Position numbers and translations under genes: made by a program | Assembly: GCF_019218285.1 (NCBI RefSeq) | Contig: NZ_JAHUZG010000003.1 | Span: 620,001-684,000 of the forward strand | Source: Antarctobacter sediminis | GTDB lineage: Bacteria > Pseudomonadota > Alphaproteobacteria > Rhodobacterales > Rhodobacteraceae | DNA: 64,000 nt | Direction: 5' to 3' | Notes under the pieces: model-generated | What the model was told of the DNA's origin: nothing | What the model saw: the letters and a program-made list of their open reading frames with translations, nothing else | Database searches by the model: none | Part shown: positions 25,888 through 57,470 of the stretch, piece by piece | How the letters are laid out: the number at the start of each line of letters is the position of its first letter | Numbering within the stretch: the stretch's first letter is position 1

Positions 25888-25960
25888 TGGTGCGCGTTCG
25901 TTGCGCACCATTCGCTGATTGGGCTTCTAGAGGTCTGCAGGGCCGTTCCCCGGCCCTTTG
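25888..25960. terminator. Two hairpins between gshA and gamma-glutamyltransferase
   Basis: TGGTGCGC (25888-25895) pairs with GCGCACCA (25903-25910). AGGGCC (25939-25944) pairs with GGCCCT (25952-25957), followed by TTG. They lie between convergent genes and probably end both transcripts. Confidence 0.65.
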
Positions 25961-26005
25961 ATCCTGCCATCTTCCGCAAGCCGTCCACGCGTAGGGCAGC
26001 CCGGA

Positions 26006-27583
26006 TCAATAGCCGATTGCGCAGCCATCCTTGCGCGGGTCCGAGGCGCCCTCCAGCACGCCATTTTCATGGATCATGATCGCCTGCGCGCCACCGATCG
26101 GGGCGCTGGGCACCTCAATGTCATGGCCCAACTCGGCCAGCGCGGCAAAGACCTCTTCATCATAGCCGCGCTCCAGCTTCAGTTTGCCATTCTCGGTAAA
26201 GCTGCGCGGCGCATCCAGCGCCGCCTGCGGGTCCATGCCGAAATCGATCATGTTGGTCAGCACCCGCGCGTGGCCATTGGGCTGATACTGCCCGCCCATG
26301 ACCCCGAAAGGCATGGTGACGCGGCCCTGTTCCATCAGGATCGCAGGAATGATCGTGTGCATCGGTCGTTTGCCGCCCGCCAGTTCGTTCGGATGCCCTT
26401 CTTGCAGGCTGAAACCCGCGCCCCGGTTCTGGAACAGGATGCCGAATTTCTCCGAGGCGATGCCCGAGCCAAAGCTGTTGAAGATCGAATAGATCAGCGA
26501 CACCGCCATGCGATCCCGATCCACCACGGTAATATAAATCGTCTCGCGGTGAACTTCTTCGGACAGCTTTTCGGGCGAAACCATTGCCCGCGCCGGATTG
26601 ATCAGTTCTGCCAGTCGCGCCGCGGTCTCGGGGCTTTGCAGGTGCTCCAGCCGGGTCATGTGATCGGGATCGGCAAGGAAGCGGTTGCGCGCGTCATAGG
26701 CCAGCTTGGCTGCCTCGGCCTCGATATGCGCACGCTGGGCTCCGAAAGGATCCATCGAGGCAAGGTCGAAATGCGACAGGATGTTCAGCAGCAGATGCGC
26801 GGTAACACCTTGGCCGTTGGGCGGATGTTCCAGCAGGTCGCGGCCCTTGTAGCTGCCAGAGATCGGGTCGCCGATGGTGCAGGCGGTAGCCGCGAAATCC
26901 TCCAACCGGTGCACGCCTCCGGCGGCCGTAAGCGCGGTGCACATGTCCTCTGCCACTTCGCCGCCGTAGAACCCGTCGCGCCCCTGCGCCGCGATGCGCC
27001 GCAGTACTTCGGCATTGCCAGGCAGCCGAAAGACATCGCCGGTCCGAGGCACAGCACCCTTGTTGAGGTAATGCGACCGGGCCGCGCCTTGCAGCCGGTC
27101 CTGGGCTTCGGCCCAGTCAAAGGCCACGCGCGGGGCCACGGGTATCCCGTCTTCCATCAGCCGGATCGCCGGTGCCAGGCTGTCTGCAAGGCCCAGCCGT
27201 CCCCAACGTTCCGACATGGTGCAAAAGGCATCGACAGCGCCGGGAATCGTCACCGCGCTGGCAGCAGCGACAGGAACGCTGTCATGCCCTTCGGTCCGCA
27301 AGGCTGCGGCGCTGGCCGCCGCGGGGGCCCGCCCCGAACCGTTCACCGCGATCACGTCGTCCCCGCCGGCGGGCGAGACCAGAGCAAAGCAATCGCCGCC
27401 AAGGCCAGTCATCGCGGGTTCGGCCGCGCCCAGAAGCACGGCGCCGGCCAATGCAGCATCCATCGCATTGCCGCCACGCTGGAGGATGTCGATCGCCGCC
27501 TGCGCGGCCAGCGGATGCGAGGTCGCGCAAAGGCCGTTCAGGGCCATAACGGCGGATCGCCCGGGTTTATGGAAATCGCGCAT
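26006..27583 (-). CDS. ggt: Gamma-glutamyltransferase family protein
   Basis: A 525-residue Ntn-hydrolase that should self-cleave into two chains. The family blocks are QRGGNAMDAALAGAVLLG, TGLGGDCFALV, NGQGVTAHLLLNIL and NSFGSGIASEKFGILFQNRG. The nucleophile Thr is probably the Thr of HRETIYITVVD, which aligns with the autocleavage site of the YwrD-like group. No signal peptide is visible, so this is a cytoplasmic member and may act on gamma-glutamyl compounds other than extracellular glutathione. GGGAGG lies 8 bases before the ATG. Two copies of a structured RNA element lie upstream on this strand. Confidence 0.88.
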   Translation of the reverse strand: MRDFHKPGRSAVMALNGLCATSHPLAAQAAIDILQRGGNAMDAALAGAVLLGAAEPAMTGLGGDCFALVSPAGGDDVIAVNGSGRAPAAASAAALRTEGHDSVPVAAASAVTIPGAVDAFCTMSERWGRLGLADSLAPAIRLMEDGIPVAPRVAFDWAEAQDRLQGAARSHYLNKGAVPRTGDVFRLPGNAEVLRRIAAQGRDGFYGGEVAEDMCTALTAAGGVHRLEDFAATACTIGDPISGSYKGRDLLEHPPNGQGVTAHLLLNILSHFDLASMDPFGAQRAHIEAEAAKLAYDARNRFLADPDHMTRLEHLQSPETAARLAELINPARAMVSPEKLSEEVHRETIYITVVDRDRMAVSLIYSIFNSFGSGIASEKFGILFQNRGAGFSLQEGHPNELAGGKRPMHTIIPAILMEQGRVTMPFGVMGGQYQPNGHARVLTNMIDFGMDPQAALDAPRSFTENGKLKLERGYDEEVFAALAELGHDIEVPSAPIGGAQAIMIHENGVLEGASDPRKDGCAIGY

Positions 27584-27654
27584 TGCTGTCTTGCCTCCCT
27601 CTCTTCCGGACCGAGCATAGTGTGGTGCGGTGCAGCGTCAATCGGGGGGGAAGT

Positions 27655-27772
27655 CCTCGACGCCACGCACTGGGTGGGGGCTGAAATCGCGCGGCGCCGA
27701 GGGAAGCCATATGCAGCTACCCTTGCAATATCCCGCGCAATCGGGGCGGAAATAAGGTGCCGGGCAGGTCAT
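27655..27772 (-). ncRNA. Candidate structured RNA element, copy 1
   Basis: Read on the minus strand, this 118-base element has a conserved block GGGTAGCTGCATATGGCTTC, then a 14-bp hairpin (plus-strand arms 27655-27668 and 27689-27702) with two G:U pairs that exist only on this strand, and a loop containing CAGCCCCCACCC. The loop is complementary to GGGTAGCTG upstream (CAGC with GCTG, ACCC with GGGT), so a pseudoknot is possible. It is 92/118 identical to copy 2 at 27836-27953. The 3' end is 71 bases before the gamma-glutamyltransferase start, so it may be a leader element or an independent sRNA. Confidence 0.7.
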
Positions 27773-27835
27773 ATCATGACGTGGTTTCCGCCTGGGTAAC
27801 CTTGGGCCTTGCGCAAATTGTCCGGGAAAACTGGG

Positions 27836-27953
27836 CCTCGGCGTCGCACACTGGGTGGGGGCTGAAAACATGCGACGCCGAGGGAAGCCATATGCAGCTA
27901 CCCTTTCTCTTTGCCCGGCAACCGGGGCGTAAATAGGGAAGGAAACAGGTGAT
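27836..27953 (-). ncRNA. Candidate structured RNA element, copy 2
   Basis: This is the second copy, 181 bases from copy 1 and aligned without gaps. Its hairpin (plus-strand arms 27836-27849 and 27870-27883) has 13 Watson-Crick pairs and one terminal G:U on the minus strand. Relative to copy 1, two stem positions changed on both sides (C-G to U-A, G-C to A-U) and three changed between G-C and G:U type pairs, so pairing is maintained. The 18-base loop core and a 30-base flanking block are identical in both copies. A CCCGG-TTG-CCGGG hairpin lies at its 5' end; copy 1 has a 4-bp equivalent. The 3' arm is followed by CCCAGTTTTCCC. Confidence 0.7.
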
Positions 27954-28010
27954 CCCGGGGCGGTTTGATGGCACCTCGAATTGCCGCGCTGAAGGTGGTG
28001 CGGATAGCAC

Positions 28011-28039
28011 AAAGGGCGGCGCATGGTGCGCCGCCCTTT
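28011..28039 (-). terminator. Strong hairpin terminator of the anti-sigma/STAS pair
   Basis: AAAGGGCGGCGCA (28011-28023) pairs perfectly with TGCGCCGCCCTTT (28027-28039) around TGG, 13 bp. It lies just after the stop of the minus-strand kinase gene and separates it from the RNA elements upstream of the gamma-glutamyltransferase gene. Confidence 0.8.
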
Positions 28040-28065
28040 GCCGGTCAGGATCATGGGTAAGACCG

Positions 28066-28515
28066 TCAGCCCAATGGTATGGTCAGTGTCAGGCGATTGC
28101 GGTCGCCATCATGGCTGTAGGCAAGGTTTTCCGAAAGCGACCGGATCAGGAACCAACCAAAGCCGCCTTCGGGTAGATCCTCGACCGCCACATCCAGATC
28201 CGCGGGCGCGCCTTCGGGGGTAGCCCCGTTCGGCATCGGGCGTCCGAAGTCGGTGAACTCGACCGCGAGCCGTTTCGGCGCAAAAGTGAGCTTGAGCAGG
28301 ATATCCCCGCCCGCGCGGTCCTCGTAGGCGTGTTCGACGATGTTGTTCAGCACTTCGGCAACGACAAGCTCCCAATTGCTGTCTGCCGCAGGGCTGCTGA
28401 CCTCATCCTTCAGCAGTCCATTGATCGCCTCCAAGGTCTTGCGCACGTCTTCCGGGGTGCTGTCCATCTGGCAGGAAATCAGAAATGTGCCATCCTCCAG
28501 CCGCTCCGCTCGCAT
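28066..28515 (-). CDS. RsbW-like anti-sigma factor / serine-protein kinase (HATPase_c_2)
   Basis: A 149-residue GHKL-fold ATPase. The N box is ELVVAEVLNNIVEHAYED (about residues 46-64) with the conserved Glu and Asn; a G1-type motif is FTDFGRPMPNG, and GGFGWFLIRSLSENLAY is the G2 region. In the known partner-switching scheme, such kinases bind a sigma factor or phosphorylate a STAS antagonist, here encoded 22 bases upstream. ATG 28515 is preferred because 28578 would overlap the STAS gene. The sigma factor controlled is not in the window. Confidence 0.85.
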   Translation of the reverse strand: MRAERLEDGTFLISCQMDSTPEDVRKTLEAINGLLKDEVSSPAADSNWELVVAEVLNNIVEHAYEDRAGGDILLKLTFAPKRLAVEFTDFGRPMPNGATPEGAPADLDVAVEDLPEGGFGWFLIRSLSENLAYSHDGDRNRLTLTIPLG

Positions 28516-28537
28516 CGTCAGTCGCTCCGCTCCGGGC

Positions 28538-28867
28538 TCAGGCGCTGGCCGCGGCTTCGACGGACGGGTGGATGGCAAAGATCGAATCCATCCGGGTCAT
28601 GCGAAACACCTTGTCGACGGCGGGGCTCAGTCCGGCCAGTTCCAGTTTGCCGTCCTTGGGCATCAGTTTCATCGCGGCGACGATGGCGCCAAGGCCGCTG
28701 GAATCGATGAACTCGACCTGATGCAGGTCCAGCACGTACCGGGGTTTCTCGTTTCCGAGCACCTCGCGCATGCGATCCTTGAACTGGATGGCCACCGCGG
28801 CGTCGATCCTGTTGGCGTCGACGGTGATGATATCCACTCCGGCCTGGTGATGCGTGGTCAATTGCAT
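28538..28867 (-). CDS. STAS domain anti-sigma factor antagonist
   Basis: A 109-residue STAS protein of the SpoIIAA/RsbV type. The core VLDLHQVEFIDSSGLGAIV holds the phospho-acceptor Ser (Ser56 or Ser57). The start at 28867 (MQLTTHHQAG) matches the family N-terminus. It is first in a two-gene operon with the RsbW-like kinase, so the pair should form a partner switch controlled by phosphorylation. The input phosphatase is not nearby. Confidence 0.88.
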   Translation of the reverse strand: MQLTTHHQAGVDIITVDANRIDAAVAIQFKDRMREVLGNEKPRYVLDLHQVEFIDSSGLGAIVAAMKLMPKDGKLELAGLSPAVDKVFRMTRMDSIFAIHPSVEAAASA

Positions 28868-28954
28868 GGCGTCCTCATAGTCATGGGTTGCAAGGACCCT
28901 AGACGCCAATCCTTACCATTCGGTATGCAAGTCCCGACAAAGGGAGGGATTCAC

Positions 28955-57368: not shown

Positions 57369-57470
57369 AAAAAAAGAGGCCGGGCAAAGTGCCCGGCCAG
57401 GTCCAACAGGGAGGTGCATGTGATGACCCGCACATGCAACGGGATCTCTTGAGCTTACCCTAAAAGCTGC
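57369..57470 (-). ncRNA. Candidate two-hairpin sRNA with anti-Shine-Dalgarno linker
   Basis: On the minus strand, TGCATGTG pairs with CACATGCA (plus-strand 57431-57438 and 57415-57422; 8 bp). A single-stranded linker containing CCTCCCT (57408-57414) follows, then a terminator hairpin GGCCGGGCA-CTT-TGCCCGGCC (57378-57398) and a run of nine T after TC. The nearest minus-strand gene stops at 57566, 95 bases upstream of this region, so it could be an independent sRNA or a processed 3' UTR of the CenR-like gene. The 5' end is not defined. Confidence 0.6.

Follow-up and report, generated by a model that had tools for sequence, protein, structure and literature searches.

Tandem structured RNA elements upstream of a gamma-glutamyltransferase gene in Antarctobacter sediminis: a Rhodobacteraceae family of candidate ChvI-activated small RNAs

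The rsbV-rsbW-GGT locus and its two element copies

In the window, i.e., the whole stretch of 64,000 nucleotides that was analysed, an rsbV-like gene, an rsbW-like gene, two copies of a structured RNA element and a gamma-glutamyltransferase (GGT) gene follow each other in this order, all on the minus strand. The features of the locus are as follows, with the basis of each assignment in brackets.

28538..28909, minus strand: RsbV-like STAS protein (PF01740), a common upstream neighbour (Pfam and neighbour survey)
28066..28578, minus strand: RsbW-like HATPase (PF13581), a common upstream neighbour (Pfam and neighbour survey)
27917..27966, minus strand: phased promoter repeats of the distal copy (best weight-matrix match in 64 kb, score 21.9, window not used for training)
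27886..27901, minus strand: predicted RNA 5' end of the distal copy (G at 27901) and 5' mini-hairpin AGCUG/UGGCU (covariation; 5' end placed from the promoter)
27836..27883, minus strand: main stem-loop of the distal copy with the C-rich loop CAGCCCCCACCCAG (folding, copy comparison, covariation)
27736..27785, minus strand: phased promoter repeats of the proximal copy (second-best matrix match in the window, score 16.3)
27705..27720, minus strand: predicted RNA 5' end of the proximal copy (G at 27720) and 5' mini-hairpin (covariation; 5' end placed from the promoter)
27655..27702, minus strand: main stem-loop of the proximal copy with the C-rich loop (folding, copy comparison, covariation)
27614..27641, minus strand: sigma70-like GGT promoter TTGACG-16-TATGCT, downstream of the element (promoter scoring)
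26006..27583, minus strand: gamma-glutamyltransferase family gene (PF01019) (open reading frame and Pfam)

Two other features were noticed at the locus. Directly after the rsbW-like gene (28010-28040) lies an inverted repeat of 14 perfectly matched base pairs, with a loop of 3 nt and no long T run, which is probably the terminator of that gene. On the plus strand, a 613-codon open frame runs antisense to GGT (25958-27799), most likely as a by-product of GC-rich codon use.

An earlier note on this DNA had described 27655-27772 and 27836-27953 as gap-free copies with 92 of 118 positions identical and a period of 181, and re-reading of the sequence bore this out. Among the 15 stem pairs compared between the copies, ten are the same, two differ at both positions (C-G to U-A and G-C to A-U) and a further three at one position (G:U against G-C twice, C-G against U:G once), so that no pair is lost. 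The G:U pairs exist on the minus strand, which makes this the RNA strand, as had been claimed. On this strand each copy forms a stem of 14-15 bp with a loop of 18-20 nt; compared with shuffles, the hairpin stretches reach z values of -2.6 and -3.0, and a longer stretch folded with RNAfold is weak (z -1.5 and -1.7). Both copies do share an identical loop CAGCCCCCACCC and an identical block GGGTAGCTG, and the proximal stem lies 71 bases from the GGT start codon. Overall, the earlier observation was correct in every detail tested, as regards both the identity of the copies and the pair-keeping stem changes.

A covarying RNA family in Rhodobacteraceae

Syntenic loci were reached via GGT homologues, of which the best 80 of 270 relatives were kept. 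With a model built from 37 copies, the element is found upstream of GGT in 56 of these 80 GGT-chosen loci, which is far beyond chance, and with the window they make up 57 sources with 68 matches, two copies being present in 10 of the 57; one match, the antisense strand of the element in locus L009, was set aside. The element is at most about 300 bases from GGT in most loci and about 740 bases away in L051 and L053. As had been predicted, a covariance model recovered the element across the family: in a set of 296 Rhodobacteraceae genomes, with each genus represented once, 223 matched under strict filters, leaving 73 without a match. Two or three matches occur in about 76 of the positive genomes (hand count), and in the genome of the window itself both matches sit at the GGT locus. 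In a class-wide draw under strict filters, five of 387 genomes matched, all of them Rhodobacteraceae, the family of the window, the split by family being inexact with one non-matching family member named and 362 further non-matching genomes counted without names. Based on these matches, the tandem element is a member of a family common to most sampled Rhodobacteraceae genera and not a private duplication.

The comparison with Rfam 15 agrees with the earlier statement that the element belongs to no described RNA family. In the window and six other loci the element stays below the gathering score of every family, and at E values up to 5 only chance-level matches fall on it. The SorX family (RF02784), named singlet oxygen resistance RNA in Rfam, clearly matches the window at 57372-57444 on the minus strand (85.9 bits), and not at the tandem copies. 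No description of the RNA was found in the literature searched, the supplementary sRNA lists of R. sphaeroides lying outside its scope. PMC8625941 counts 79 sRNAs for R. sphaeroides, known and predicted ones together, of which 38 are orphan, and since this list sits in the supplement, the RNA may already have been detected among them without a name.

Homologues with covariation, a lack of which would have spoken against the earlier reading, were found in related genomes. Among 64 diverse copies compared with shuffled controls, 13 of the 14 pairs of the main stem show double changes; cells changed on both sides number 129, where shuffles average 34, the covariation score is 0.473 against 0.235, and 95.3% of cells hold standard pairs against 83.6%. 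Simply counting the pairs that have at least one double change, a cruder measure, gives 14 of 18 against 10.4 in shuffles, and sliding the pairing partners abolishes the covariation signal. The element has, in this respect, the conserved structure with compensatory change that marks an sRNA gene. While the stem varies, the loop CCCCCACCC is near-invariant in the 64 sequences, and its core CCCCCAC is nearly unchanged.

The second structural part is a 5' mini-hairpin, of at least 4 bp in 59 of the 64 homologues as compared with 10% of shuffles. Its fourth pair covaries (U-A 31, U-G 18, G-C 7, C-G 2, A-U 1, non-standard 5), and the divergent copies show it best, as UAGCG/CGCUA in L130, L131 and L133, AGCGGU/ACCGCU in L126 and CAGCAA/UUGCUG in L127. 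RNAalifold drew the mini-hairpin on the alignment of 37 sequences and not on that of 64, because it varies in length and is misplaced by MAFFT. The divergent copy in L126 (1501-1576) comes from genome G046, which we take to be R. sphaeroides (2.4.1-like); it has the loop UGUCCCCCACCC and lies between the rsbW-like and GGT genes.

These data also change the picture of the upstream block. A pseudoknot between CAGC of the loop and the upstream GCUG, as proposed before, does not receive support: the third of its pairs is broken in 17 of the 64 sequences and the fourth in 14, the first and second hardly vary and are thus uninformative, and the divergent copies lose CAGC yet keep the 5' mini-hairpin. 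As for the switch pairing of GGGTAGC with GGCTTCCC that had been thought conceivable, the AGCU/GGCU core stands and corresponds to the conserved 5' hairpin, while the GGG/CCC extension is not conserved. Judged by covariation, the block is better explained by a 5'-terminal mini-hairpin than by a pseudoknot.

It is very improbable that the element is a short coding gene or a mobile repeat and not an RNA, even though the window copies contain an ATG inside the 5' hairpin and are duplicated in tandem. Conservation of a protein frame in place of pairing, which the earlier note had named as damaging to its reading, is not seen over the 64 homologues: frames are open over the element in 2, 38 and 37 of the 64 sequences for the three frames, the distance from arm to loop takes all values from 34 to 41 and not multiples of three only, and an ATG occurs in the 5' hairpin region of just 14 sequences. 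A mobile repeat is also at odds with the position of both matches of the own genome at one locus.

The phased promoter and its candidate regulator

When the copies are anchored on GUAGC, conservation begins sharply at about -65, with C peaks at -59, -48, -37 and -26, A/T-rich steps between them and a box resembling a -10 element between -12 and -6 relative to the anchor. The promoter statistics cover only copies with at most one loop mismatch and GTAG[CG] in front (GTAAGC copies, e.g., were dropped), and for the statistics on 102 promoters and the weight matrix copies more than 80% alike were thinned. The autocorrelation of column information is 0.55 at a lag of 11, the next best value among lags 5-17 being 0.24. 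Three or four of the four phased CC are present in 42 of the 102 promoters, against at most one at control offsets of 2-5 bases, six at +1 and 38 at -1, the last because the same C runs still score. A weight matrix trained without the window placed its two promoters first and second in the 64 kb; the third site of the window scores 15.6 and the best of four shuffled windows 18.6, above the 16.3 of the proximal copy, so that the matrix alone is not specific. As far as sequence can tell, each copy has a promoter of its own, as an sRNA gene would.

With a phasing of 11 bp the half-sites all point to the same side of the helix, which is what regulators of the OmpR/PhoB family require. Direct repeats are described as typical of OmpR-family regulators, with TGA-N8-TGA as the motif of CenR in R. 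sphaeroides (PMC9275681). The ChvI consensus of S. meliloti is reported as N-GCC-N8-GCC (PMC9731502, citing Ratib 2018), and the phased repeats may offer a concrete candidate site model for ChvI in Rhodobacteraceae. The Caulobacter ChvI motif given in the same source, TTGC-N3-GCAA (PMC9731502), is unlike GCC-N8-GCC and calls for caution with this reading.

A ChvI orthologue (E below 1e-70) is present in 273 of the 296 Rhodobacteraceae genomes. In the own genome the protein that we take to be ChvI has 233 aa with Response_reg and Trans_reg_C domains and belongs to a row ChvI-ChvG-HprK-RapZ next to pckA, HprK being called by its Pfam model and the probable ChvI, ChvG, RapZ and pckA being named by sequence and gene order. 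The RNA is present in 222 of the 273 genomes with ChvI as compared with 1 of the 23 without it (Fisher p 5e-14, phylogeny being ignored and three of the 23 being counted from gaps in the genome numbering). The sole RNA-bearing genome below the cut-off, G156, has a partial ChvI match of 86% identity over residues 2-101 (contig C16, 23647-23946), which suggests that its chvI is broken or misassembled. A recheck of eight of the 23 genomes at low threshold found, besides G156, a C-terminal fragment of 63% identity in G087 and only distant paralogues in the rest, and a looser RNA search in three of the 23 (G020, G087 and G117) found none. ChvI is not sufficient for the RNA, since 51 genomes with ChvI gave no RNA match; many of them have a more divergent ChvI. 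The matrix site nearest to the start of chvI in the own genome scores only 8.7, within chance. Overall, the co-occurrence and the repeat spacing point to the envelope-stress regulator ChvI as the probable activator of the RNA, via GCC-N8-GCC.

Genomic homes, targets and relation to known small RNAs

The position of the element before GGT would fit a cis-acting leader or riboswitch, in which the hairpins lie in the GGT 5' untranslated region and control GGT. Besides the synteny in the 56 GGT-chosen loci, rsbV and rsbW are present in all of the best 30 loci chosen by the RNA (own genome included) and GGT in 27 of them, GGT turns up in 17 of another 30 loci, selected so as to cover multi-match genomes, and the element ends at a median of 76.5 nt from the GGT start (range 53-192, 52 loci). 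The few terminators on copies at GGT loci point in the same direction. However, the copies carry their own promoters, no expression platform was seen, and the sigma70-like GGT promoter of the window, scoring 9/12, begins 14 bases past the last stem base. Across 52 of the 56 loci (four were without a loop by the search pattern), the GGT promoter scores at least 8/12 in 19, against 7.8% of shuffles, and at least 9/12 in 11, against 1.5%; the same or a similar promoter is clear in near relatives of the window and weaker elsewhere. In addition, ten of the 30 further loci, several of them with terminators, lack both GGT and rsbV/W within the 3 kb examined, and in five loci (L085, L099, L111, L113 and L114) the RNA is accompanied by rsbV/W, with no GGT match in the stretch examined. 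The element is thus not in the leader of a GGT mRNA at all loci, given the GGT-less copies and the downstream GGT promoter in the clade of the window, and we regard control of GGT by a leader as improbable. Of the two possibilities raised earlier, a tandem leader or twin sRNAs, the own promoters, the separate GGT promoter and the GGT-less sister copies weaken the first, while the second is supported.

At seven of the ten loci without GGT and rsbV/W (L128, L130, L131, L133, L137, L139 and L140), and also in L149, an NlpC/P60 gene lies upstream of the RNA, as called from open reading frames, with Pfam run on two of these genes and a DUF2794 neighbour; none was seen upstream in L135, L136 and L138. 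Of the 11 copies in these ten loci, 8 carry an intrinsic terminator, against 1.4% of shuffles; it starts about 7-15 bases past the stem. L128, which shares a genome with L139 (G239, contig C25), has three tandem copies after the NlpC/P60 gene, each with its own intrinsic terminator. Judging from such loci, the complete unit appears as a promoter, a 5' hairpin, a C-loop hairpin and a terminator.

Overall, 20 of 121 copies have an intrinsic terminator, five of 60 in the GGT loci plus the window, and neither window copy has one, so that the proximal copy may read into GGT. A dual unit, overlapping with the explanation we prefer, would be an sRNA with a proximal copy that, in addition, is read through and released from a longer GGT transcript by processing. 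The terminator counts at GGT loci and elsewhere speak for it, as does a GGT promoter score below 8 in 33 of 52 loci, whereas the good GGT promoter in the window and its nearest relatives speaks against it; we give it a modest probability.

Exact complements of 12 bases of the loop were found in 23 of 31 genomes. In the 31 loci read by eye (L150-L179 and L181) these were the element itself or scattered sites, with no conserved target noticed. Pairing of the loop with targets, if any, hence probably relies on a site that is shorter or not fully complementary, or else the loop binds protein. The latter would make the RNA a decoy, its C-rich loop on a long stem titrating an RNA-binding protein with no pairing to mRNA. 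A near-invariant loop on a variable stem, tandem multiplication up to three copies and the fact that no conserved 12-base complement was noticed would suit such a role. We consider it rather unlikely, as there is no candidate protein and sRNA seeds just as typically are single-stranded loops that hardly vary.

The explanation we favour, with moderate confidence, is that each copy would be a separate sRNA gene, activated by ChvI, with a loop that pairs with targets in trans. An OmpR/PhoB-type regulator, with ChvI from the envelope-stress system ChvG-ChvI as the most likely candidate, would bind up to four GCC half-sites on one helix face just upstream of the -10 box and activate transcription. 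The predicted RNA would start at or near GUAGC and consist of a short 5' hairpin, a stem of 14-15 bp presenting the near-invariant single-stranded loop GCCCCCACCCAG and a pyrimidine-rich tail. The loop would most likely be a seed pairing with G-rich sites in target mRNAs, and the tandem copies may raise dosage or diverge. More tentatively, and with somewhat less than even confidence, we propose a Rhodobacteraceae-wide, often multi-copy sRNA regulon, in which ChvI acts via four phased half-sites and CCCCCACCC serves as the seed, with its main home at rsbVW-GGT and further homes including nlpC/P60. Seed, regulator and locus would each be open to a single deletion or point mutant.

Among known sRNAs, AbcR1/AbcR2 of the Rhizobiales, tandem trans-acting twins, resemble the element in arrangement; they find no support as its identity, the tandem-copy locus having no Rfam match. 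'Intergenic 134' of Paracoccus denitrificans, described as an RNA of 84 nt with high read counts and conserved in Rhodobacteraceae (PMC5107571), is alike by description only, as a small RNA conserved in this family. StsR (RSs0827) of R. sphaeroides comes from the same bacterial family and is described as an abundant, stress-induced sRNA of 72 nt with trans targets; unlike the ChvI control proposed here, it is reported to be controlled by RpoHI/RpoHII (PMC8307010). The element of G046 lies at 87 kb of a contig of 3,188,524 bases. With RSP_0847 near 2,597,500 (PMC9275681), an sRNA numbered after RSP_0827 should map elsewhere, and, going by this gene numbering, StsR probably maps to another place than the element. 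StsR is not supported as the identity of the RNA, in view of its RpoH control and its probable different map position.

The closest parallel is ChvR of Caulobacter crescentus, described as an RNA of 84 nt with its own promoter and several stem-loops, under ChvI-ChvG control, which represses a TonB-dependent receptor mRNA by base-pairing (PMC6237742). By description only, the element is alike in being a short alphaproteobacterial RNA with its own promoter, stem-loops and proposed ChvI control. It differs in place, the Rhodobacteraceae RNA being found at GGT or nlpC/P60 and ChvR beside recF (PMC6237742). The RNA is set apart from the families of Rfam 15, and ChvR and Intergenic 134 are likened to it by description. 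Comparable envelope-stress sRNAs are MicA and RybB of enterobacteria, and to our knowledge few are known outside enterobacteria and Caulobacter. If the proposal is true, an RNA present in roughly three out of four sampled genera of a marine-abundant bacterial family would form a family-wide regulon coupling envelope stress to mRNAs, as this lineage's counterpart of ChvR or of MicA/RybB.
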